Source: Kitasatospora cinereorecta (lineage in GTDB: Bacteria; Actinomycetota; Actinomycetes; Streptomycetales; Streptomycetaceae). From it: a stretch of 64,000 bases of DNA. The translations under genes were made by a program, and so were the position numbers. Below the pieces are notes generated by a model. The model was not told where the DNA came from and did not search any database. It saw only the letters and a list, made by a program, of their open reading frames with translations. Below, piece after piece: positions 27,367 through 42,570 of this stretch (positions within the stretch are counted from its first letter, which is position 1; the number at the start of each line of letters is the position of its first letter). The stretch lies in the NCBI RefSeq assembly GCF_024172095.1, contig NZ_JAMZDX010000003.1, positions 248,001 to 312,000 on the forward strand. Direction: 5' to 3'.

Positions 27367-29061
<1,695 letters not shown>

Positions 29062-29083
29062 GCTGAGGCACAGCGCCAACAGT

Positions 29084-29157
29084 AGGGGCGCGAGGAACTG
29101 CGCGACCGGCCATGCACTCCCGTAGTGCCGGGCCGGAGCGCGGGTCCTCGCGCCCCT
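29084..29157. repeat. Second copy of the GGGGCGCGAGGAACTGCGCGA inverted repeat
   Basis: Perfect 13-bp outer arms (29084-29096 with 29145-29157) and an inner 6-bp pair (29106-29111 with 29131-29136). The left arm is shared with the repeat at 12113-12249. It sits between the groEL1 stop and the LysR start, so it may end the heat-shock transcript. Confidence 0.75.
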
Positions 29158-29180
29158 CGTGGTTTCCGTATCGTTGACGC

Positions 29181-30185
29181 GTGATCGAAGCTCGCCACCT
29201 GCGCGTCCTGCGCGCCGTCGCCCGGACCGGCTCCTACTCGGCGGCCGCCCGCGAGCTGGGCTGCACCCAGCCGGCGGTCAGCCAGCAGATGAAGGCGCTG
29301 GAGAAGGCGGTGGCCACCCCGCTGGTGGTCCGCTCCGGCCGGGAGACCCAGCTGAGCGAGGCGGGCCGGGTGCTGCTGAAGCACGCGACCGGCATCCTGG
29401 CCGGCCTCTCCGCGGCGGAGGAGGAGGTCGCGGCGATCGCCGGACTGCGGGCCGGACGGGTGCGGCTGGTGTCCTTCCCGACCGCGAGTTCCACTCTGGT
29501 GCCGCGTTCGGTCGCCCGGTTGCGCGCCGCCCATCCGGGGGTCCGCGTGTCGCTGGTGGAGGCGGAGCCGCCGGAGTCGCTGGCGATGCTGCGCGGCGGC
29601 GAGTGCGAGGTGGCGCTGGCGTTCCGGTACCCGGACTCGCAGGGCGGCGCGGTGAGCCGGCCCGCCCCGCACGCCACCCTGCGCGAGGCGCGGGCCGAGG
29701 CGACCCTGGAGGCGGCGGCGACGGCGGCGGCCAACGACTGGTCGGACCTGGTGGTGCGCCCGCTGCTGGACGATCCGCTGGTCGGCGTGGTGCCGGCCGG
29801 CCATCCGCTGGCCGAGCGGGGCGAGGCCGATCCAGTGGATCTGGCGGAGCTGTCCGGGGAGCAGTGGATCGCGGGCTGCCCGCAGTGCCGCGGGCACCTG
29901 GTGGAGCTCTGCGAGAACGCGGGCTTCGAACCGCGGATCGACTTCGCCACCGACGACTACCCCGCGGTGGTCGGCCTGGTGGCGGCCGGGCTGGGGGTCG
30001 CGGTGCTGCCGGGGCTGGCCCTGGAGTCGGTGCGGCAGTCGGGGGTGGCGGCGGTACCGGTGCGGGTGGCGTCGGGGGATCCGGCGCGGCGTCAGGTGGT
30101 GGCGCTCACCCTGCCGGACCTGGCGGAGGTTCCGGCGGTGGACCTGATGCTGGATCAGCTCGCCGCGGCGGTCGACGCCGGCTGA
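29181..30185 (+). CDS. LysR-family transcriptional regulator
   Basis: 334 residues, GTG start. The winged helix at the N-terminus (IEARHLRVLRAVARTGSYSAAARELGCTQPAVSQQMKALE) is classic LysR, followed by a linker helix and a periplasmic-binding-like effector domain (about 95-330). The domain contains an unusually Ala-rich segment (EARAEATLEAAATAAAN, about 173-190) and a CPQC pair (about 233-236) that could sense redox or metal. No divergent target gene sits next to it; the upstream neighbour is groEL1, so its regulon is unknown. Confidence 0.9.
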   Translation: MIEARHLRVLRAVARTGSYSAAARELGCTQPAVSQQMKALEKAVATPLVVRSGRETQLSEAGRVLLKHATGILAGLSAAEEEVAAIAGLRAGRVRLVSFPTASSTLVPRSVARLRAAHPGVRVSLVEAEPPESLAMLRGGECEVALAFRYPDSQGGAVSRPAPHATLREARAEATLEAAATAAANDWSDLVVRPLLDDPLVGVVPAGHPLAERGEADPVDLAELSGEQWIAGCPQCRGHLVELCENAGFEPRIDFATDDYPAVVGLVAAGLGVAVLPGLALESVRQSGVAAVPVRVASGDPARRQVVALTLPDLAEVPAVDLMLDQLAAAVDAG

Positions 30186-30297
30186 CCCGCGCTCCGCGTC
30201 CCGCCCCGCGGGCAGCCGAATGCGTATCGCACGCAGGGCCCCACGTGCGAGGAAACGTTTCTTCTGCGGTCGACCGGGGCTCGTGCCCCGCCTGCGT

Positions 30298-30624
30298 TCA
30301 GCGGCGGATGGTACCCGGCATCGCCAGCGGGACCTCGACCATCCGGTTGCGCGCGCGGCCGAGCAGTTCCTCGCGCTCGTCCTCGGTCAGTCCGCCCCAG
30401 ACGCCGTAGGGCTCGCGGACGGCCAGGGCGTGTGCGGCGCACTGCGCGCGTACCGGGCAGCGCATGCACACCTCTTTGGCACTCGCCTCGCGCGAACTCC
30501 GGGCGGCCCCGCGTTCGCCCTCGGGGTGGAAGAAGAGCGAGCTGTCCACGCCGCGGCAGGCTGCGGACAGCTGCCAGTCCCAGAGGTCGGCGTTGGGGCC
30601 GGGGAGGCGGGAGAAATCTGCCAT
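30298..30624 (-). CDS. whiD: WhiB-family sporulation regulator WhiD
   Basis: 108 residues. WhiD is a [4Fe-4S] Wbl protein needed for spore maturation. The four cluster ligands are Cys23, Cys53, Cys56 and Cys62 (AACRG..CMRCPVRAQC), followed by the Wbl turn GVWGG (74-78) and a basic C-terminal segment. The N-terminus MADFSRLPGPNADLWDWQL and its position divergent from bldM match S. coelicolor whiD as I recall it. The ATG at 30624 has GAAGGG upstream. Wbl proteins act by binding a sigma factor region 4. A short hairpin (30275-30290) beyond the stop may end transcription. Confidence 0.93.
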   Translation of the reverse strand: MADFSRLPGPNADLWDWQLSAACRGVDSSLFFHPEGERGAARSSREASAKEVCMRCPVRAQCAAHALAVREPYGVWGGLTEDEREELLGRARNRMVEVPLAMPGTIRR

Positions 30625-30696
30625 GGCTCTTACCCTTCGAGGACTCGGGACCTGGCAGCTCGGCGAGGCTGCACGGGGCCGGTAGGGACACCTGGA

Positions 30697-30725
30697 AATA
30701 TGACTTACGCCAACCAACAGGACAA
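30697..30725 (-). promoter_or_regulatory. Candidate vegetative-type promoter of whiD
   Basis: Read on the minus strand: TTGTCC (30725-30720), 17 bases, CATATT (30702-30697), giving a leader of about 65 bases to the whiD ATG. Confidence 0.4.
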
Positions 30726-30919
30726 GTCACCCACAGAGCGACACAACAGTCAATGACCGGATGGAAGCTATAAAAACGGACAAACGGGGCAAGAGGTTTG
30801 ACGGATTCGCTGCGGCAGACGGGTGGTGCACAGGGCGTGGACGGCTGTTGGAAGGCGCGCGGGGCGCGGGCGGCGCGCGCGAGCAGCACAAAAGTGCGGC
30901 GTGTGCACCGCGAGGTGGC

Positions 30920-30948
30920 TGATCCGTGACGGATCGGCCACGTACAGT
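30920..30948. promoter_or_regulatory. Perfect dyad GATCCGT-G-ACGGATC with overlapping promoter-like boxes
   Basis: A 7-1-7 perfect palindrome (30921-30935) in the whiD-bldM intergenic region. TGATCC (30920-30925), 17 bases and TACAGT (30943-30948) overlap it on the plus strand, so a regulator bound here could block a second bldM promoter. No known operator was matched. Confidence 0.4.
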
Positions 30949-30969
30949 GGTGGAGATGGCCCTGAAGGC

Positions 30970-30997
30970 CGTAACTCATTCGAGTGACGGTCGTTGG
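30970..30997 (+). promoter_or_regulatory. Sigma-BldN-type promoter of bldM
   Basis: CGTAAC (30970-30975), 16-base spacer, CGTTGG (30992-30997): one change from the sigma-BldN consensus CGTAAC-N16-CGTTGA known from bldMp1 in S. coelicolor. The leader would be about 145 bases. The spacer contains a near-palindrome TCATTCGAGTGA (30976-30987). Confidence 0.8.
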
Positions 30998-31148
30998 ATG
31001 TGCGGAGGCGGTTAGCGGGCGCTGGAGCCCGGGAACGATCGCGGTGGCATCGGCGATCAACCGGGGTCCGTCGCCAATCGGCCGTGTCGGAGAGGTTCGT
31101 ACCAGCCAGGAGGCTCAACGTGACGCGGATCAGCTGCGGAGGACGGTC

Positions 31149-31760
31149 ATGACATCCGTACTCGTCTGCGACGATTCCCCGCTCGCCCGGGAGGCGCTTC
31201 GCCGAGCGGTCGCGACCGTGCCCGGCGTCGACCGGGTGACCACTGCGACGAACGGTGAGGAGGTCCTCCGCCGCTGGGTGGCCGACCGCTCCGATCTCGT
31301 TCTGATGGATGTCCGGATGCCCGGCCTCGGCGGGGTGGAGACTGTGCGCCGGCTGCTGTCGGCCGACCCCGGTGCCCGGATCATCATGCTCACCGTCGCC
31401 GAGGACCTGGACGGCGTCGCCCTCGCGGTGGCCGCCGGTGCCCGCGGTTACCTGCACAAGGACGCCTCGCGCGCCGAACTGCGGGCCACCGTGACCCAGG
31501 CGCTCGCCGACCCGACCTGGCGGCTCGCACCGCGCCGGCTGCGCAGCCCCGACATGGGTGCGGCGCCGACGTTGACGGCGCGTGAGATCCAGGTGCTGGA
31601 GGGCATGAGCCACGGCCGGAGCAACGCGGAGATCGGCCGCGAGCTGTTCCTGTCCGAGGACACCGTCAAGACCCACGCCCGGCGCCTGTTCAAGAAGCTC
31701 GGCGCCTCGGACCGCGCGCACGCCGTGGCGCTCGGTTTCCGCTGGGGCCTGGTCCGCTGA
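31149..31760 (+). CDS. bldM: Atypical response regulator BldM
   Basis: 203 residues, the length of S. coelicolor BldM. The receiver domain starts MTSVLVCDDSPLAREALRRA, with Asp54 in LMDVRMPG, then IMLTVAEDLDGVALAVAAGARGYLHKD. The C-terminal LuxR/FixJ helix-turn-helix has LTAREIQVLEGMSHGRSNAEIGRELFLSEDTVKTHARRLFKKLG. BldM needs no cognate kinase; as homodimer and as BldM-WhiI heterodimer it drives aerial growth and sporulation genes. Position between whiD and sigD-guaB and the sigma-BldN promoter confirm the identity. Upstream starts in frame lack support. Confidence 0.97.
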   Translation: MTSVLVCDDSPLAREALRRAVATVPGVDRVTTATNGEEVLRRWVADRSDLVLMDVRMPGLGGVETVRRLLSADPGARIIMLTVAEDLDGVALAVAAGARGYLHKDASRAELRATVTQALADPTWRLAPRRLRSPDMGAAPTLTAREIQVLEGMSHGRSNAEIGRELFLSEDTVKTHARRLFKKLGASDRAHAVALGFRWGLVR

Positions 31761-32958: not shown

Positions 32959-34464
<1,506 letters not shown>

Positions 34465-34511: not shown

Positions 34512-34686
34512 TTCGCCGTTCGCGCGGCCGGTCCCGGCCCGGGGTGATCCCGTGGACGGGCCGGTCCGGTGGGGGGTGCCGTCCGGCCCTCGGCCGGTCG
34601 CGGCAGGGGACGTGCGGGTGCGGGATACTGGGGGCGGCCGGGGTGACCCGGCCGGGAGATGCACAGCAGCAGCAGAAGGGCTCGAA

Positions 34687-35814
34687 GTGACTGAGATCGA
34701 GATCGGGCGAGGCAAGCGCGGCCGCCGGGCTTACGCCTTCGACGACATCGCCGTCGTCCCCAGCCGCCGTACCCGGGACCCGAAGGAGGTCTCGATCGCC
34801 TGGCAGATCGACGCCTACCGCTTCGAGCTGCCCTTCCTGGCGGCGCCGATGGACAGCGTCGTCTCGCCCGACCAGGCGATCACCATCGGTCGGCTCGGCG
34901 GCCTCGGCGTGCTGAACCTCGAGGGCCTGTGGACCCGGTACGAGGACCCGCAGCCGCTGCTGGACGAGATCGCGGCGATGACCGACGAGGTGGCCGCCAC
35001 CCGCCGGCTGCAGGAGATCTACGCCGAGCCGATCAAGGCCGAGCTGATCAAGGAGCGGATCAAGCAGGTCCGCGAGTCCGGTGTGGTCACCGCCGCCGCG
35101 CTCTCGCCGCAGCGCACCGCCGAGTTCTCCAAGGCCGTGGTCGACGCCGGCGTGGACGTCTTCGTCATCCGCGGCACCACGGTCTCCGCCGAGCACGTCT
35201 CCGGTGCCGCCGAGCCGCTCAACCTCAAGCAGTTCATCTACGAGCTCGACGTCCCGGTGATCGTCGGCGGCTGCGCCACCTACACCGCCGCGCTGCACCT
35301 GATGCGGACCGGCGCGGCCGGCGTGCTGGTCGGCTTCGGCGGCGGCGCCGCCCACACCACCCGGGGCGTCCTGGGCATCCAGGTGCCGATGGCCACCGCG
35401 GTGGCCGACGTGGCCGCGGCCCGCCGCGACTACATGGACGAGTCCGGCGGCCGCTACGTGCACGTGATCGCCGACGGCGGCGTGGGCTTCAGCGGCGACA
35501 TCCCCAAGGCGGTGGCCTGCGGCGCCGACGCGGTGATGATCGGTGCCGCGCTGGCCCGGGCCACCGACGCGCCCGGCCGCGGCCACCACTGGGGCATGGA
35601 GGCGGTCCACGAGGAGCTGCCGCGCGGCAAGCGCGTGCACCTGGGCACCGTGGGCACCACCGAGGAGATCCTGACCGGTCCGTCGCACACCCCGGACGGC
35701 ACCATGAACCTCTTCGGCGCGCTCCGCCGGGCGATGGCGACCACCGGCTACACCGAGCTCAAGGAGTTCCAGCGGGTCGAGGTCACCGTCAACCCCGCGC
35801 TCAACCACCGCTGA
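34687..35814 (+). CDS. guaB3: GuaB3 family IMP dehydrogenase-related protein
   Basis: 375 residues, GTG start with AGAAGGG upstream. TEIEIGRGKRGRRAYAFDDIAVVPSRRTRDPKEVSIAWQIDAYRFELPF is the actinobacterial GuaB3 pattern, a TIM barrel without CBS domains. At the place of the IMPDH catalytic loop (GSICTTR) it reads AAHTTRGVLGIQVPMATA, with His223 where guaB has Cys311. It therefore lacks the usual nucleophile, and IMPDH activity is doubtful; a different purine reaction or a regulatory role is possible. A GATACT box at 34624-34629 may be its -10. Confidence 0.9.
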   Translation: MTEIEIGRGKRGRRAYAFDDIAVVPSRRTRDPKEVSIAWQIDAYRFELPFLAAPMDSVVSPDQAITIGRLGGLGVLNLEGLWTRYEDPQPLLDEIAAMTDEVAATRRLQEIYAEPIKAELIKERIKQVRESGVVTAAALSPQRTAEFSKAVVDAGVDVFVIRGTTVSAEHVSGAAEPLNLKQFIYELDVPVIVGGCATYTAALHLMRTGAAGVLVGFGGGAAHTTRGVLGIQVPMATAVADVAAARRDYMDESGGRYVHVIADGGVGFSGDIPKAVACGADAVMIGAALARATDAPGRGHHWGMEAVHEELPRGKRVHLGTVGTTEEILTGPSHTPDGTMNLFGALRRAMATTGYTELKEFQRVEVTVNPALNHR

Positions 35815-35863: not shown

Positions 35864-35959
35864 GCGTCCGGCGGAAAACCGAGGGCCGGTTGGCGCCGGG
35901 CCGCCGTGACAGGGGATGATGGAGTCTTGGGCCGGCAACACATGGGGGAGAGCGCACCG

Positions 35960-37915
35960 ATGACGCAGCCGCAGGAGTCCATCGGCCGTCTGCTGGCGGG
36001 GCGTTACCGGCTGAACGACGTGCTCGGCCGGGGCGGCATGGGCACCGTCTGGCGGGCCGAGGACGAGATGCTCGGCCGGATCGTGGCGGTCAAGGAACTA
36101 CGCATGACCGGCGCGGTGGACGAGGACGAGAAGCACCGTCTGATCGTCCGTACGCTCCGCGAGGCCAAGGCGACCGCCCGGATCCGGCACACCGCCGCCG
36201 TCACCGTCTTCGACGTGGTCGAGGAGGACGAGCGGCCGTGGATCGTGATGGAGCTGGTCGAGTCCCGCTCGCTGGCCGAGGTGATCAAGGAGGACGGCAC
36301 CCTCACCCCGGTGCGGGCCGCCGAGATCGCGCTCGACCTGCTCGGCGTGCTCGGCGCCGCGCACAGCCACGGCATCCTGCACCGTGACGTGAAGCCGTCC
36401 AATGTGCTGATCGGCGAGGACGGCCGGGTGGTGCTCACCGACTTCGGCATCGCCAGCGTCGAGGGCGACACCTCGATCACCTCCACCGGCATGCTGGTCG
36501 GCGCGCCCTCGTACATCTCGCCCGAGCGGGCCCGCGGGCAGAAGCCCGGCCCGCCGGCCGACATGTGGTCGCTCGGCGGCACCCTGTACGCGATGGTCGA
36601 GGGCAACCCGCCCTACGACCGCGGCTCGGCGCTGGCCACGCTCACCGCGGTGATGACCGAGGACCTCGCCCCGCCGCTGAACGCCGGCCCGCTGCGGCCG
36701 GTGATCGAGGGCCTGCTGATCAAGGACCCGGCCGAGCGGCTGGACGCGGCCGCCACCCGGGCGATGCTCAAGCGGATCGTCGCCGACGGCGCGGCCCGCG
36801 CCGAGGCCACCACCCAGCAGGCCGTCCCGACCCCGGCCTCGGCCCCGGTCGCGGCTGCGAAGCCGGAGACGAAGGCCGCGACGGCTGCCGGGAAGTCCGC
36901 GGTCGCAGCGGCGGCAGCGGGCGCGCCCTCCGTCAAGGAGCCGGCCGAGGCGGCGCAGGCCGCTGCGGAGAAGCCGCGGCGCGCCGGGGTGGGCACGGTG
37001 CGGGTCGGCAGCCGTTCGGCCGCGCCGTCGGCGCCCATGCCTACGCCCGCGGCCGCCGCCGTCCCGGCCCCGCGGACTCCGGAGGCGTCGGCCCCGGCCG
37101 AGCCGCAGACCTCGATGATGCCGGCGACCGGCACCGCCGACCGGCGGCGGCGCACCGCCGTCCTGGCCGGCGGCGCGGTGGTGCTGGTCCTGGTGCTGGT
37201 CGCCGCCCTGATCGCGCTGCTCCACCACGACAAGAAGACCGGCTCCTCCTCCGCGGACCAGGCCCCGGCCTCCACCGCGCCCGACGCCACGGGTGCCCCG
37301 GCCGCCTCCGGCGCGCCCGCGGGCTCGCCCGCTCCGGGCGGGACCGCGGCCTCGCCGGCGCCCGGCACGGGTACCGGTACTGGTACCGGCACCGGTACGG
37401 GCGCGAGCCCGGCGGCGTCCGCCGGGCAGACCCCGGCCGCCTCCGGTGCCCCGGCCGGTCAGCCGCCCGCCGGGTTCACCCTCTGGAAGGACCCGTCCGG
37501 CTTCTCCCTGGCGATACCCGACTGGCTCACGGACAAGGGCGTGGACTACGACTCCACCAGCCGCAAGTTCGAGGGCCGCGGGATGAAGTTGATGATCGAC
37601 TGGCGCCAGCCGGCCGGTGACAACGCGCTGAAGGACTGGCAGGAGATGGACCAGAGCGGGCCGTCGACCTTCTCCAACTACAAGCGCATCCGCGTCGAGG
37701 GCATGACCTTCCGCAGCTGGACCAACGCCGCCGACTGGGAGTGGACCTACACCCGGTCCGGCAGCACCGCGCACGCGCTCAACCGCGGCTTCGTCACCGG
37801 CGGCGGCAAGTACGGGTACGCGATCTTCTGGACCATCCCCGAGTCGGACTGGAGCGGCCCGGTCGCCTCGCAGGCCCGCCAGGTCTCCTTCGACACCTTC
37901 CAGCCCGCACCGTAG
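35960..37915 (+). CDS. PknB-type Ser/Thr protein kinase with extracellular domain (copy 1)
   Basis: 651 residues from the ATG at 35960, which has GGGGGAG nine bases upstream. Kinase domain about 14-275: Gly loop GRGGMGTVW, Lys45 in VAVKEL, catalytic HRDVKPSN (Asp143), DFG at 161-163 and APSYISPERARG. All catalytic residues are present. An Ala/Pro/Lys linker precedes a membrane span (about 399-422). Outside, a Gly/Thr/Ala/Pro stalk with a GTGTGTGTGTG run leads to a domain beginning GFTLWKDPSGFSLAIPDWL. The same fold appears at the C-terminus of the kinase at 39220, so these are paralogues. It probably senses an envelope signal. Confidence 0.92.
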   Translation: MTQPQESIGRLLAGRYRLNDVLGRGGMGTVWRAEDEMLGRIVAVKELRMTGAVDEDEKHRLIVRTLREAKATARIRHTAAVTVFDVVEEDERPWIVMELVESRSLAEVIKEDGTLTPVRAAEIALDLLGVLGAAHSHGILHRDVKPSNVLIGEDGRVVLTDFGIASVEGDTSITSTGMLVGAPSYISPERARGQKPGPPADMWSLGGTLYAMVEGNPPYDRGSALATLTAVMTEDLAPPLNAGPLRPVIEGLLIKDPAERLDAAATRAMLKRIVADGAARAEATTQQAVPTPASAPVAAAKPETKAATAAGKSAVAAAAAGAPSVKEPAEAAQAAAEKPRRAGVGTVRVGSRSAAPSAPMPTPAAAAVPAPRTPEASAPAEPQTSMMPATGTADRRRRTAVLAGGAVVLVLVLVAALIALLHHDKKTGSSSADQAPASTAPDATGAPAASGAPAGSPAPGGTAASPAPGTGTGTGTGTGTGASPAASAGQTPAASGAPAGQPPAGFTLWKDPSGFSLAIPDWLTDKGVDYDSTSRKFEGRGMKLMIDWRQPAGDNALKDWQEMDQSGPSTFSNYKRIRVEGMTFRSWTNAADWEWTYTRSGSTAHALNRGFVTGGGKYGYAIFWTIPESDWSGPVASQARQVSFDTFQPAP

Positions 37916-37966
37916 TTCGGGCACCTTGCGCCGTACTCTGGCCCGAGGGCGGCAGGGAGGGACGGG

Positions 37967-39064
37967 ATGAGAACGGCACCGGGCCAGGTGGTCGGAGGGT
38001 GGTACCGGGTGACGGACCATCCGGCGGGCGAGGACGTGCCCGCGCAGGACCTGCGGTCCGGGGCGCGGGTGCGGATACGCCCGCTGGAGCTTCCCGAACT
38101 GCTCACCCCCGGCGGGCCGGAGGGACCCGAGTACCCCCGGTACGGCCCGCGGCTGGCCGAACGGGTGGCCGCGGTCGCCGCCGCCGCACCCGACCATGCC
38201 CGGCTGCTGCGCGGCCTGGAGGCGGTGCCCGAGGACGAGCTGCTGTGGGTCGTCGAGGAGCGGACCGCCGGCGAGCCGCTGTCCCGGCTGGCCGGCAACG
38301 GGCCGGTCTCCGCGTACCGGGTGGCGGAGATCGCCGCCGACCTGGCCACCGCCCTGCGGGCCCTGCACCGGGCGGGGCTGACGCACGGCAACCTGACCGC
38401 CGACACGGTGCTGGTCTGCGAGGACGGCGCCGCCCTGCTCGGCGGGCTGCTCGGCGGCGCGGCCGAGGAGGAGCTCTGCGCGGCGGTCGGCGGGCCGGTG
38501 CCGCGCCGGGTGTACGAGACCCGGGCGCTGCTGGTCGGGCCGCGCGCCGAGCGCTGGCCGATCGACGCCGGCGCGCCGGGCGACTGCTGGGCGCTGGGGG
38601 TGCTGCTGTACCGGCTGCTGACCGGGTACGGGCCGTACCCGGAGGACGACCTGCCGACGCTGCTGGCGGCGGTCCGGGACGGGCGGGCGCGGTCGGCGGA
38701 GGGCTGCGGGGTGCTGCGTCCGCTGGTGGAGCGGCTGTTGCAGCCGGATCCGGGGCTGCGGCCGGACGCGGCGGCGATCCAGGGAGAGCTGCGCGCGGTG
38801 CTGGCCGGGGCGCCGGAGCCGTACGGGTCGGGGACCGTCCCGGTGCCGCTGCTGCCGGTGGTGCGGCCGCCGGCCGGGCCGCTGGTCCCCACCGGGCGCA
38901 GGCGCGTCCGGCGGACTGCCCGTCAGCACACGGAGCATCAGTCCGCGCTGCCCGCCCGGCGTGCGCCGGTGGTACCGCCGGCGCTGCTCGGTCCGCTGCT
39001 GGTGGGCGGGGTGGTGCTGGCGCTGGTGGCCGCGTTGGCCGCGGTGGTGCTGGTCGCGGGCTGA
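37967..39064 (+). CDS. Membrane-anchored pseudokinase
   Basis: 365 residues with a PknB-like fold that has lost the catalytic residues. The HRD motif reads H140-G-N142, DFG is replaced by LLGG (about 158-164), no glycine loop is present and the beta3 region reads VRIRPLE without the VAVK lysine. Structural segments survive: VAEIAADLATALRALHRAGLTHGNL, GDCWALGVLLYRLLTGYGPYP and LVERLLQPDPGLRPDAAAI. A C-terminal membrane helix (about 338-364) follows a basic stretch, leaving almost nothing outside. It lies 51 bases after the first kinase and 155 before the second, and may act as a scaffold for them (inference). Confidence 0.85.
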   Translation: MRTAPGQVVGGWYRVTDHPAGEDVPAQDLRSGARVRIRPLELPELLTPGGPEGPEYPRYGPRLAERVAAVAAAAPDHARLLRGLEAVPEDELLWVVEERTAGEPLSRLAGNGPVSAYRVAEIAADLATALRALHRAGLTHGNLTADTVLVCEDGAALLGGLLGGAAEEELCAAVGGPVPRRVYETRALLVGPRAERWPIDAGAPGDCWALGVLLYRLLTGYGPYPEDDLPTLLAAVRDGRARSAEGCGVLRPLVERLLQPDPGLRPDAAAIQGELRAVLAGAPEPYGSGTVPVPLLPVVRPPAGPLVPTGRRRVRRTARQHTEHQSALPARRAPVVPPALLGPLLVGGVVLALVAALAAVVLVAG

Positions 39065-39219
39065 ACCGGGGCGGTCACGCTGCGGTGCGGAGGCAGGGGC
39101 GAGATTCCGGGAGTGCCACCTGCGGCCTAATCTGAGCGTGAAAGAAGACACGCGGTGACTGCGGTGCACCGGGACCCCCGCCGGAACGGCGGTGGGGCAG
39201 TGAGGGGGAGCGGTCGCCC

Positions 39220-40860
39220 ATGGGCGTGCATGACCAGTCGACGGGCCGGGTACTCGCGGGCCGGTACGCGCTCGGGGAGCGCCTGGGCAGGGGTGGCATG
39301 GGCACCGTCTGGCGGGCCCGCGACGAGATGCTCGACCGCGAGGTCGCGGTCAAGGAGCTGACCGTCAGCCACCTGTCCGAGGAGGACCTGGAGATCCTGC
39401 AGTCCCGGATGAAGCGCGAGGCCCGGGCCGCCGCCCGGATCAAGCACCCGGGCGTCATCACCATCCACGACGTGCTGGAGCAGGACGGCCGGCCGTGGAT
39501 CGTCATGGAGCTGGTGGACGGCCGTTCGCTGTCCGCGGTGGTCTCCGAGGACGGCGCGCTGACCCCGCGCGAGGCGGCCGAGGTGGGCGTGCAGGTGCTC
39601 GCCGCGCTCCACCGCGGCCACCAGCTCGGCGTGCTGCACCGGGACGTCAAGCCGGCCAACGTGCTGCTGGAGCACGGCACCGGGCGTGCGGTGCTGCTGG
39701 ACTTCGGCATCGCCAAGTTCGAGGGCGCGGGCATCGAGCTGACCCGCCCCGGCGACCTGGTGGGCTCGCCCGACTACCTGGCGCCCGAGCGGGCCCAGGG
39801 GCAGCGCCCCGGCCCGGCCTCCGACCTGTGGGCGCTCGGGGCGACCCTGTACACGGCGGTGGAGGGCGAGTCCCCGTTCCGCCGGGACACCCCGCTGACC
39901 ACGCTGGCCGCGGTGGTCGACGAGCCGCTGCCGCCGCCGCGCCGGGCCGGCGCACTGGCCCCGGTGCTGGCCGCGCTGATGGTCAAGGACCCGGAGCAGC
40001 GGCCGACCGCCGACCAGGCGATCCGGATGCTGCGCGAGGTGGCGGCCGGGGCGACGCTGGGCATCCGGGTGCCGGACCAGGAGGCGCCCCGGGAGACCAC
40101 GCAGTCCGTACCGGTGGCGGACCGCACCGAGCGGGCCGCCGCGGAGCTCGACGCCGTCGGCGAGGCCCCGTCCGAGCGACCGACCGAGGCCGGAGGGTCG
40201 GCGGAGGCCGCTTCGACCGTGGCGGAGGGCGCGGTCCCGGCGCGCCGCCGCCGGCGCCGCCGCTGGCCGCTGGTGACGGTGGCCGTCCTGGTGGCCGCGC
40301 TGGTGGCCGGCGGAGTCGGCTACCGGATGCTGCACCTGCACAGCGGCGGCCCGGTCTCCCCGAGCGGGCCGAGCCCCGCCCCGACCGAGCCGATCGCCAG
40401 CGACGCCCCCGCGCCGGCCGGCTACGCCTGGCGGGACGACCCGGAGGGCTTCCGCTTCCTGGCGCCCACCGACACGCCCTGGACGCGGACCGACGAGGGC
40501 GGCGGCCAGATCGTCTACAGCCCGGACGCCAAGATCCACTACCTGCAGTTCGCCAAGACGGTCGGCCAGCCGCTCAGCCCCCGGGCGCACTTCCTGCAGA
40601 TGGAGACCGCGGTCAGCAAGAACCTCAAGGACTACCAGCTGACGGACATGTCCGACGTCCGGATCAAGGACCAGGAGGGCGCGGTCTGGGAGTTCAGCTA
40701 CACCGCCAGGGACGGCAGCCGCCGGCACGCCAAGGAGGCGGAGTTCCGCAGCTCCAACGGCACCTCGTACGCGGTCTACATCTCCGGACCGGACAAGGAC
40801 TGGACCGCCAGCCAGCGCCGGTTCACCGTGGTGCTGAACGGCTTCACGCCGACCGGCTGA
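39220..40860 (+). CDS. PknB-type Ser/Thr protein kinase with extracellular domain (copy 2)
   Basis: 546 residues, ATG with GAGGGGGAG upstream. Kinase domain about 14-280: GRGGMGTVW, Lys45, HRDVKPAN (Asp142), DFG (161-163) and SPDYLAPERAQG. A juxtamembrane Arg run (ARRRRRRRW) precedes the span (about 348-368). The extracellular part opens GYAWRDDPEGFRFLAPTDTPW and ends DWTASQRRFTVVLNGF, parallel to copy 1 (DWSGPVASQARQVSFDTF). The shared architecture suggests tandem duplication with the pseudokinase between. It is followed by a promoter-like box for the next gene, so the kinase run ends here. Confidence 0.93.
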   Translation: MGVHDQSTGRVLAGRYALGERLGRGGMGTVWRARDEMLDREVAVKELTVSHLSEEDLEILQSRMKREARAAARIKHPGVITIHDVLEQDGRPWIVMELVDGRSLSAVVSEDGALTPREAAEVGVQVLAALHRGHQLGVLHRDVKPANVLLEHGTGRAVLLDFGIAKFEGAGIELTRPGDLVGSPDYLAPERAQGQRPGPASDLWALGATLYTAVEGESPFRRDTPLTTLAAVVDEPLPPPRRAGALAPVLAALMVKDPEQRPTADQAIRMLREVAAGATLGIRVPDQEAPRETTQSVPVADRTERAAAELDAVGEAPSERPTEAGGSAEAASTVAEGAVPARRRRRRRWPLVTVAVLVAALVAGGVGYRMLHLHSGGPVSPSGPSPAPTEPIASDAPAPAGYAWRDDPEGFRFLAPTDTPWTRTDEGGGQIVYSPDAKIHYLQFAKTVGQPLSPRAHFLQMETAVSKNLKDYQLTDMSDVRIKDQEGAVWEFSYTARDGSRRHAKEAEFRSSNGTSYAVYISGPDKDWTASQRRFTVVLNGFTPTG

Positions 40861-40925: not shown

Positions 40926-40931
40926 TATGGT
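40926..40931 (+). promoter_or_regulatory. -10 box of the aldehyde dehydrogenase gene, leaderless
   Basis: TATGGT ends seven bases before the ATG at 40939; no ribosome-binding sequence lies between, as in streptomycete leaderless transcripts. Confidence 0.5.
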
Positions 40932-40938
40932 GTCGGCC

Positions 40939-42570
40939 ATGACGGACATCACGGCAGACGGACAGGCCCGGACCGCAGCGGCCGGGAGCAACCCCGCAGC
41001 CCCGGGCGGCGGCCGTACGGTCGCCTCGGCGGTCACCCCCGCCGTGATCGCCCGGCTCGCCCGCGGCGTCACCGCCGACGGCGAGGGCGGCACCGCCGAC
41101 ACCATCGCCCCGCTCACCGGCGAGACGCTGGCCACCCTGCCGCTCTCCACCCCGGCCGACGTGGAGCGGGCCTTCCAGGTCGCCCGCCGGGCCCAGCCCG
41201 CCTGGGCCGCGCTGCCGGTCCGCCGCCGGGCCGCCGTCCTGCTGCGCTTCCACGACCTGCTGCTGCGGCGGCAGGACGAGGTGCTCGACCTGATCCAGGC
41301 GGAGACCGGCAAGGCCCGGCTGCACGCCTTCGAGGAGGTCATGGCGGTCGCCTCGGCCGCCCGCCACTACGGCCACCGGGCCGCCTCCTACCTGCGCGAC
41401 CGCCGCCGCGGCGGCGCGATCCCCGGCCTGACCAGCGCGGTGGAGGCCCGCCGTCCCAAGGGCGTGATCGGCCAGATCTCGCCGTGGAACTACCCCTTCG
41501 AGCTGTCGGTCGGCGACGCGCTGCCCGCCTTCGTGGCCGGCAACGCGGTGGTCAACAAGCCCGACACCCAGACCGCGCTGACCGCGCTGTGGGCCCGCGA
41601 GCTGTTCATCGAGGCCGGCCTGCCCGCCGAGGTGTGGCAGATCGTCCTCGGCGACGGCCCGGTGGTCGGCCCCGCCGTGGTCGACCGGGCCGACTACGTG
41701 GCCTTCACCGGCTCCACCCGCACCGGCCGCGAGGTCGCCCAGAAGGCCGCCGCCCGGCTGGTCGGCGCCTCCCTGGAGCTCGGCGGCAAGAACGCCATGC
41801 TGGTGCTGGCCGACGCCGACCTGGACCGGGCCGCCGAGGGCGCTGTCCGGGCCTGCTTCTCCTCCGCCGGACAGCTGTGCATCTCCATCGAGCGGCTCTT
41901 CGTGCACCGCTCGGTCGCCGAGGACTTCCTCGCCCGGTTCGCCGAGCGGACCGCGGCGCTGCGCCTCGGCGGCGGCCTCGCGTACGGCGCCGACATGGGC
42001 TCGCTGGTCTCCCCGCGGCAGCTGGAGACCGTCGGCCGGCACGTGGACGAGGCCGTCAAGGCCGGCGCCACCGTGGTCACCGGCGGCCGGGCCCGCCCCG
42101 ACCTCGGCCCGCTCTTCTACGAGCCGACCATCCTCGACGGGGTCACCCCCGAGATGGCCGTCTGCGCCGAGGAGACCTTCGGCCCGGTGGTCTCGATCTA
42201 CCGCTTCGACACCGACGACGAGGCCGTCGCGGCGGCCAACGCCACCCCGTACGGGCTCAACTCCAGCGTCTGGACCCGTAACCTGCGCCGCGGCCGGGCG
42301 GTCGCGGCCCGGCTGCACACCGGCACGGTCAACGTCAACGAGGCGTACGCCGCCGCCTACGGCTCGGTCGCCTCGCCGATGGGCGGCATGGGCGACTCCG
42401 GGCTCGGCCGGCGCCACGGCGCGGAGGGCATCCTGCGCTACACCGAGGCGCAGACCGTCGCGGTGCAGCGGCTGCTGCCGATCGGACCGTCGATGGGGAT
42501 GGACGACGAGAAGTTCGCCCGGCTGTTCACGACCGGGCTCAAGGCGATGAAGGCGTTCCGGCTCAAGTGA
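40939..42570 (+). CDS. Succinate-semialdehyde dehydrogenase family protein
   Basis: 543 residues from the second ATG (40939), which sits seven bases after a TATGGT box. The aldehyde dehydrogenase core has the oxyanion Asn in SPWNYPFE, the general base Glu in LELGGKNAML and the catalytic Cys in SSAGQLCISIERLF, with the late EETFGPVVSIYRF. The GabD2-like pattern points to succinic semialdehyde oxidation in GABA breakdown, but the true substrate could be another aldehyde. Length exceeds typical GabD by an Ala/Gly-rich N-terminus of about 45 residues. The GMC oxidoreductase follows 51 bases on and may be co-transcribed. Confidence 0.88.
   Translation: MTDITADGQARTAAAGSNPAAPGGGRTVASAVTPAVIARLARGVTADGEGGTADTIAPLTGETLATLPLSTPADVERAFQVARRAQPAWAALPVRRRAAVLLRFHDLLLRRQDEVLDLIQAETGKARLHAFEEVMAVASAARHYGHRAASYLRDRRRGGAIPGLTSAVEARRPKGVIGQISPWNYPFELSVGDALPAFVAGNAVVNKPDTQTALTALWARELFIEAGLPAEVWQIVLGDGPVVGPAVVDRADYVAFTGSTRTGREVAQKAAARLVGASLELGGKNAMLVLADADLDRAAEGAVRACFSSAGQLCISIERLFVHRSVAEDFLARFAERTAALRLGGGLAYGADMGSLVSPRQLETVGRHVDEAVKAGATVVTGGRARPDLGPLFYEPTILDGVTPEMAVCAEETFGPVVSIYRFDTDDEAVAAANATPYGLNSSVWTRNLRRGRAVAARLHTGTVNVNEAYAAAYGSVASPMGGMGDSGLGRRHGAEGILRYTEAQTVAVQRLLPIGPSMGMDDEKFARLFTTGLKAMKAFRLK

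Follow-up and report, generated by a model that had tools for sequence, protein, structure and literature searches.

A conserved membrane-anchored pseudokinase beside receptor kinases in Kitasatospora cinereorecta, a candidate non-catalytic partner of its neighbours

Introduction

What might a protein kinase homologue without catalytic residues do between two complete receptor kinases? The question is raised by three tandem open reading frames on the plus strand (35906-40860), encoding PK1, PSK and PK2, in the window analysed here, a stretch of 64,000 nucleotides of Kitasatospora cinereorecta DNA (Table 1). A sequence-only reading of this DNA had taken the three genes for a receptor complex with a built-in allosteric or scaffold subunit, the middle protein PSK.

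In Streptomyces coelicolor, guaB is SCO4770, and SCO4771 encodes another IMP dehydrogenase (PMC3293853). Five genes annotated as kinases, i.e., pkaH, SCO4776, pkaD, pkaI, and pkaJ, make up SCO4775-4779 (Ladwig et al. 2015, PMC4416010). SCO4776 alone among them lacks a pka name, and it has been published as an active eSTPK (PMC4416010). The cluster controls spore-wall integrity (PMC4416010): spores are aberrant when all five genes are deleted, and also when a single one, SCO4776 being among these, is present in an extra copy. With only SCO4776 duplicated, the spores are both aberrant and sensitive to vancomycin. The authors explain the second-copy phenotypes by overbalanced phosphorylation. PkaI bound PkaD in two-hybrid tests, and SCO4776 is not among the PkaI partners named in the available part of the report, in which the five genes are described as transcribed separately, with different profiles (PMC4416010).

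Table 1. Features of the locus, in window coordinates
Feature	Position	Strand	Basis
guaB, conserved left neighbour, SCO4770 position	32959..34464	+	TIGR01302
guaB3, conserved left neighbour, SCO4771 position	34636..35814	+	TIGR01304
PK1, intact transmembrane Ser/Thr receptor kinase	35960..37915	+	Pkinase 153.8 bits, catalytic motifs
PK1 start candidates	GTG 35906 (ORF open from there), ATG 35942, ATG 35960; stop 37915	+	
PK1 transmembrane helix	37160..37222	+	hydropathy 3.07
PK1 extracellular domain	37466..37912	+	hhalign to PK2 ectodomain, probability 99.4%
PSK, membrane-anchored pseudokinase, short form, 365 aa	37967..39064	+	profile, alignment, model, synteny
PSK codon at beta3 Lys position, Arg (R38)	38078..38080	+	
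PSK HGN replacing HRD	38384..38392	+	alignment; Asn142 invariant in 34 orthologues
PSK GLL replacing DFG	38444..38452	+	alignment to PK1
PSK APEP motif after helix I	38810..38821	+	invariant in 34/34 orthologues
PSK C-terminal transmembrane helix, GPLLVGG motif, no ectodomain	38978..39058	+	AF2, hydropathy
PK2, intact transmembrane Ser/Thr receptor kinase, 546 aa	39220..40860	+	Pkinase 161.9 bits; tree
PK2 transmembrane helix	40270..40332	+	hydropathy
PK2 extracellular domain, PsbP-like (weak)	40420..40857	+	Pfam PsbP 24.2 bits, cut-off 23.5
Succinic semialdehyde dehydrogenase (ssdh), conserved right neighbour	40927..42570	+	NF006916; synteny

Catalytic motifs and predicted fold

The flanking kinases are complete. 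Their Pkinase matches (154 and 162 bits) span the whole domain, and both proteins have what defines an active PknB-type receptor kinase, i.e., all catalytic motifs, a transmembrane helix, and an ectodomain; in PK1, VAVK, HRDVKPSN, and DFG are all present. The two ectodomains are homologous (20% identity; Table 1) and appear weakly PsbP-like, judging from the marginal Pfam match of PK2. Hydropathy predicts one transmembrane helix in each of PK1, PSK, and PK2. The AF2 model of PK2, computed from a single sequence, had a pLDDT of 38. The extracellular linker of PK1 contains a short GGTACC-like (Gly-Thr)n coding repeat (37367-37405).

PSK, by contrast, lacks the VAIK Lys, the HRD Asp, and the DFG Asp of active PknB-type kinases. 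Its Pfam Pkinase match amounts to 32.7 bits and starts only at profile position 56, and its alignment to PK1, the best-scoring paralogue for the PSK profile in its own genome, reveals no glycine loop, VRIR in place of VAVK, HGNLTADT in place of HRDVKPSN, and GLL in place of DFG; the APE motif reads PID in K. cinereorecta. In other orthologues DFG is replaced by TGL or GGL, and whether this counts as deletion or substitution depends on the alignment. The HRD Asp and DFG are absent from all 41 aligned orthologues, and this recurrent loss of the same catalytic residues makes the pattern more than chance. Moreover, Asn142 is invariant (34/34 orthologues), and HRN is found in each of the 71 readable copies from 80 named Streptomyces loci, a set without S. 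coelicolor, the remaining nine lying at contig ends or having a frame broken within an insert. At the position of the beta3 Lys, 78 of 79 Streptomyces-type copies have Arg, compared with only 3 of 13 copies from the genus of K. cinereorecta, within which the residue is R, S, F, H, A, E, or Q. Among the orthologues seen, degeneration has gone furthest in L126:7217-8545 (G074), which lacks even the HxN motif (it reads HLALT) as well as some of the activation segment and has kept its position.

The AF2 model of PSK, built from 34 orthologues, predicts a well-packed, two-lobed kinase fold (pLDDT approx. 90-98 for most of the stretch 1-285, residues 40-60 excepted) that holds all core strands and helices, including those of a short N-lobe. 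Two helices (161-175 and 179-190) take the place of the activation loop, and a disordered linker (287-334) precedes the transmembrane helix (338-364). In a PDB fold search, the nearest solved structures were those of M. tuberculosis PknB. Within the genus, the transmembrane helix of PSK has a mean pairwise identity of 61%, compared with 47% for that of PK1 and 34% for that of PK2. Matches to anti-phage kinase families (mad6, PD-T4-6) and to lanthionine synthetases were rejected as generic kinase similarity, far below the cut-offs where these exist. Thus, the sequence-only reading was right about the lost motifs of the middle protein, its terminal membrane helix, and the complete flanking kinases with a common extracellular domain, and it understated the fold, crediting PSK with the helical lobe where a short N-lobe is also predicted.

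Conservation, gene order, and selection

The same reading had named a PSK that was degraded or missing in close relatives as the result that would count against it. Orthologues are present in 59 of the 61 congeneric genomes, and in the other two (G031 and G039) the contigs end inside the locus. Across the family, PSK occurs in 15 of 17 genera sampled, mostly as direct matches and in two cases at the syntenic place (L125 and L126). The conserved order is guaB-guaB3-PK1-PSK-kinase(s)-ssdh. The proposed conservation of the three-gene order therefore holds for part of the set: PK1 directly precedes PSK in 111 of the 120 loci where PSK was recognised; in 7 others the preceding gene is a kinase that did not score as PK1, and in 2 the contig begins there, whereas the gene on the 3' side varies. 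PK2 is elsewhere or absent in several genera, and in many Streptomyces two to four kinases come after PSK. Given this asymmetry, the constant unit is the PK1-PSK pair, not three genes. Scans for promoters and terminators gave no signal. The synteny with S. coelicolor reaches farther upstream: 5' of guaB, at 27385-31757, are groEL and the gene of a NarL-like response regulator, the latter at a BldM-like position.

The whole-gene NG86 dN/dS of PSK (0.33-0.54) is similar to that of PK1 and PK2, and because NG86 ignores GC bias, only the comparison among the three genes counts. The PSK domain changes faster than the active kinase domains (49-63% vs. 85-90% identity). The frame breaks seen in PSK are at masked bases (L133) or, in three draft genomes of Streptomyces, within the long insert. 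Within the genus, PSK distances covary with those of the PK1 (partial r 0.44) and PK2 (0.45) kinase domains once the distances of three neighbour genes (guaB, guaB3, and ssdh) are removed; when three more distant genera are added, the PSK-PK1 covariation disappears (partial r 0.09, p 0.20) and the PSK-PK2 covariation remains. It should be noted that this signal is exploratory and fragile, as it depends on the genomes included.

Origin of PSK and its long and short forms

All PSK copies form one clade (SH-aLRT 100); the branch is long and its basal forks are not resolved, and the tree does not single out the source active kinase. In the deep-branching genera g2 and g5 (four genomes: L123, L124, L127, and L128), four HRD-intact kinases and no PSK lie between guaB3 and ssdh, which might represent a 'before' state. 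Outside the family, the best matches of PSK in 198 class-level genomes are, among those read, active kinases. From these two observations, the preferred reading is that PSK is specific to the family and descends from a kinase of the same cluster; loss of PSK in g2 and g5, rather than its later origin, is a possible alternative. In another actinobacterial family (L109, L111, and L115), an active kinase without an evident ectodomain lies beside a second kinase, a layout like that of PK1-PSK, with a partner that is not dead.

Streptomyces PSKs are long (open frames of approx. 830-1210 aa) and contain an activation-segment insert of approx. 300 aa (+8 aa in the genus of K. cinereorecta), a beta3-alphaC insert of approx. 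30 aa (+7 aa in that genus), and an ectodomain homologous to those of PK1 (hhalign 96.4%) and PK2 (98.3%). In g1, g3, g4, and g12, and separately in g11 and g15, PSK ends at or soon after the transmembrane helix. The activation-segment insert (L084, L086, and L138-L217) is a low-complexity, Pro/Gly/Asp-rich stretch of approx. 180-560 aa, highly variable in length.

Relation to SCO4776

PK1 is at the position of S. coelicolor SCO4775/pkaH, and in the tree PK2 is related to the third Streptomyces gene (SCO4777/pkaD position). Streptomyces loci of this layout read kinase, PSK, kinase, kinase, kinase; with PSK in second place, SCO4776 is very probably its orthologue, an assignment made by gene order. 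Indeed, the place is the same (guaB (SCO4770), guaB3 (SCO4771), kinase, SCO4776, kinase(s)), although the Streptomyces forms are long, with insert and ectodomain, both of which are missing from the K. cinereorecta protein. If SCO4776 is catalytically dead, as PSK is, its dosage effect must be non-catalytic, i.e., exerted without phosphate transfer. This suggests that one of the five published spore-wall 'kinases' is dead and that the interpretation of extra SCO4776 as extra phosphorylation deserves re-examination.

Possible roles of PSK

The explanation that we favour, giving it about an even chance of being correct, is that PSK, conserved and non-enzymatic, acts from the membrane on the neighbouring kinases, as an allosteric or a scaffold partner. 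The C-terminal helix would anchor PSK in the membrane and leave the pseudokinase domain on the cytoplasmic side. PSK would bind either or both of the kinases beside it, and PK1 is the first to consider because of its constant adjacency. Binding could involve the kinase-fold surface and the membrane helix, the APEP motif and the conserved transmembrane segment being candidate contact sites. Without transferring phosphate itself, PSK might alter the dimerisation, trans-autophosphorylation, or placement of its partners at the spore-wall machinery; contact, direction of effect, and a role in the spore wall of K. cinereorecta are all presumed in this scheme. The conservation, synteny, and covariation within the genus fit a non-catalytic partner, as do the PknB-like predicted fold, the ectodomain that long forms have in common with PK1 and PK2, and the rank of PK1 as best-scoring paralogue, and to that extent the complex proposed by the sequence-only reading is borne out; its 'receptor' part is weaker for the K. 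cinereorecta clade, since PSK has lost there the ectodomain that Streptomyces forms keep. The fast evolution of PSK relative to the active kinase domains argues against a partner, and the separate transcription of the five S. coelicolor genes counts against a complex of fixed stoichiometry. The absence of SCO4776 from the named PkaI partners also speaks against the proposed binding. A bolder version, resembling a HER3-type pair, is speculative and we doubt it: PSK would be an obligate dead subunit that arose from an active receptor kinase of the same cluster. By switching its catalytic neighbours allosterically it would time spore-wall building, and its sensor would have been shed in the lineage of K. 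cinereorecta.

Other roles have to be weighed against a non-catalytic partner. The actinobacterial pseudokinase MviN recruits FhaA through its C-terminal tail once PknB has phosphorylated that tail (PMC12599244). The disordered linker of PSK would fit a similar arrangement, in which the neighbouring kinases phosphorylate the linker and wall synthesis is controlled by a phosphopeptide-binding FHA protein docked at it. However, the linker has no Thr conserved across orthologues (at least one congener, L058, has none there), which makes such docking less likely; it is also the least conserved part of PSK (40% identity), and no FHA gene was identified in the cluster. We therefore consider this scaffold unlikely. 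Ranking next, and likewise improbable, is a decoy or sink whose sole effect would be to dampen the receptor kinases, either by trapping them in unproductive dimers or through competition for their substrates. The retained kinase-shaped predicted surface and the short form without a sensor domain agree with it, as does the resemblance of the second-copy SCO4776 phenotype to that of the five-gene deletion; however, duplicating an active kinase leads to that defect as well (PMC4416010), so the direction of the effect is unreadable, and long forms retain the ectodomain.

An enzyme repurposed to bind ATP through the beta3 Arg, for other chemistry or nucleotide sensing, has a precedent in the AlphaFold3-predicted binding of ATP by two Arg in a representative of the ActPs2 family (PMC12599244), but the beta3 residue is unconstrained in the genus and both the glycine loop and the DFG Asp are missing, which leaves this reading very improbable. 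That PSK is a decaying, functionless pseudogene of a receptor kinase is scarcely credible: it evolves faster than the active kinases and its ectodomain has been lost repeatedly, yet reading frames are intact across 15 genera with position kept, dN/dS is similar to that of its neighbours, and PSK-specific residues are invariant.

Comparison with known systems

Like PSK, EssB/YukC of type VIIb secretion is a membrane-anchored dead kinase, with a structural role, although it belongs to another lineage and another system; we know of no receptor kinases neighbouring it. PknB-type receptor kinases have the same fold as PSK, but they are active and carry PASTA domains, in place of which PK1 and PK2 have the putative PsbP-like ectodomain. 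MviN/MurJ (ActPs3, M. tuberculosis) is likewise an actinobacterial membrane pseudokinase and one that is tied to cell-wall synthesis. It differs in belonging to a large transmembrane peptidoglycan-synthesis protein, in having other residues (LSIDHPSR) where HRD would be, and in its phospho-dependent FhaA docking; the conserved juxtamembrane Thr for FHA docking that marks this group is missing from PSK.

ActPs2 is an actinobacterial family of unknown function, named in 2025 and characterised by Arg in place of the beta3 Lys, Asn in place of the HRD Asp, deletion of DFG, and a transmembrane helix, with a beta3-alphaC insert (approx. 32 aa) and a disordered activation-loop insert (approx. 250 aa) in approx. 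90% of members (O'Boyle et al. 2025, PMC12599244). Streptomyces PSKs match every ActPs2 feature tested. Judged by the published description, the K. cinereorecta protein, which has the beta3 Arg, the Asp to Asn change, the loss of DFG, and the C-terminal helix, appears to be an ActPs2-like, short variant: both inserts, neither of them absolute in the family, are missing, and the beta3 Arg is not conserved in its genus. The available part of that description gives no genomic context, link to SCO4776, or shared ectodomain (PMC12599244). The link between SCO4776 and ActPs2, the shared ectodomain of long forms, its loss in the clade of K. cinereorecta, and the four active kinases of deep-branching genera are thus new here. 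Most bacterial pseudokinases have no known function, and PSK can link ActPs2 to a genetically studied cluster with a phenotype, which would provide a testable setting.
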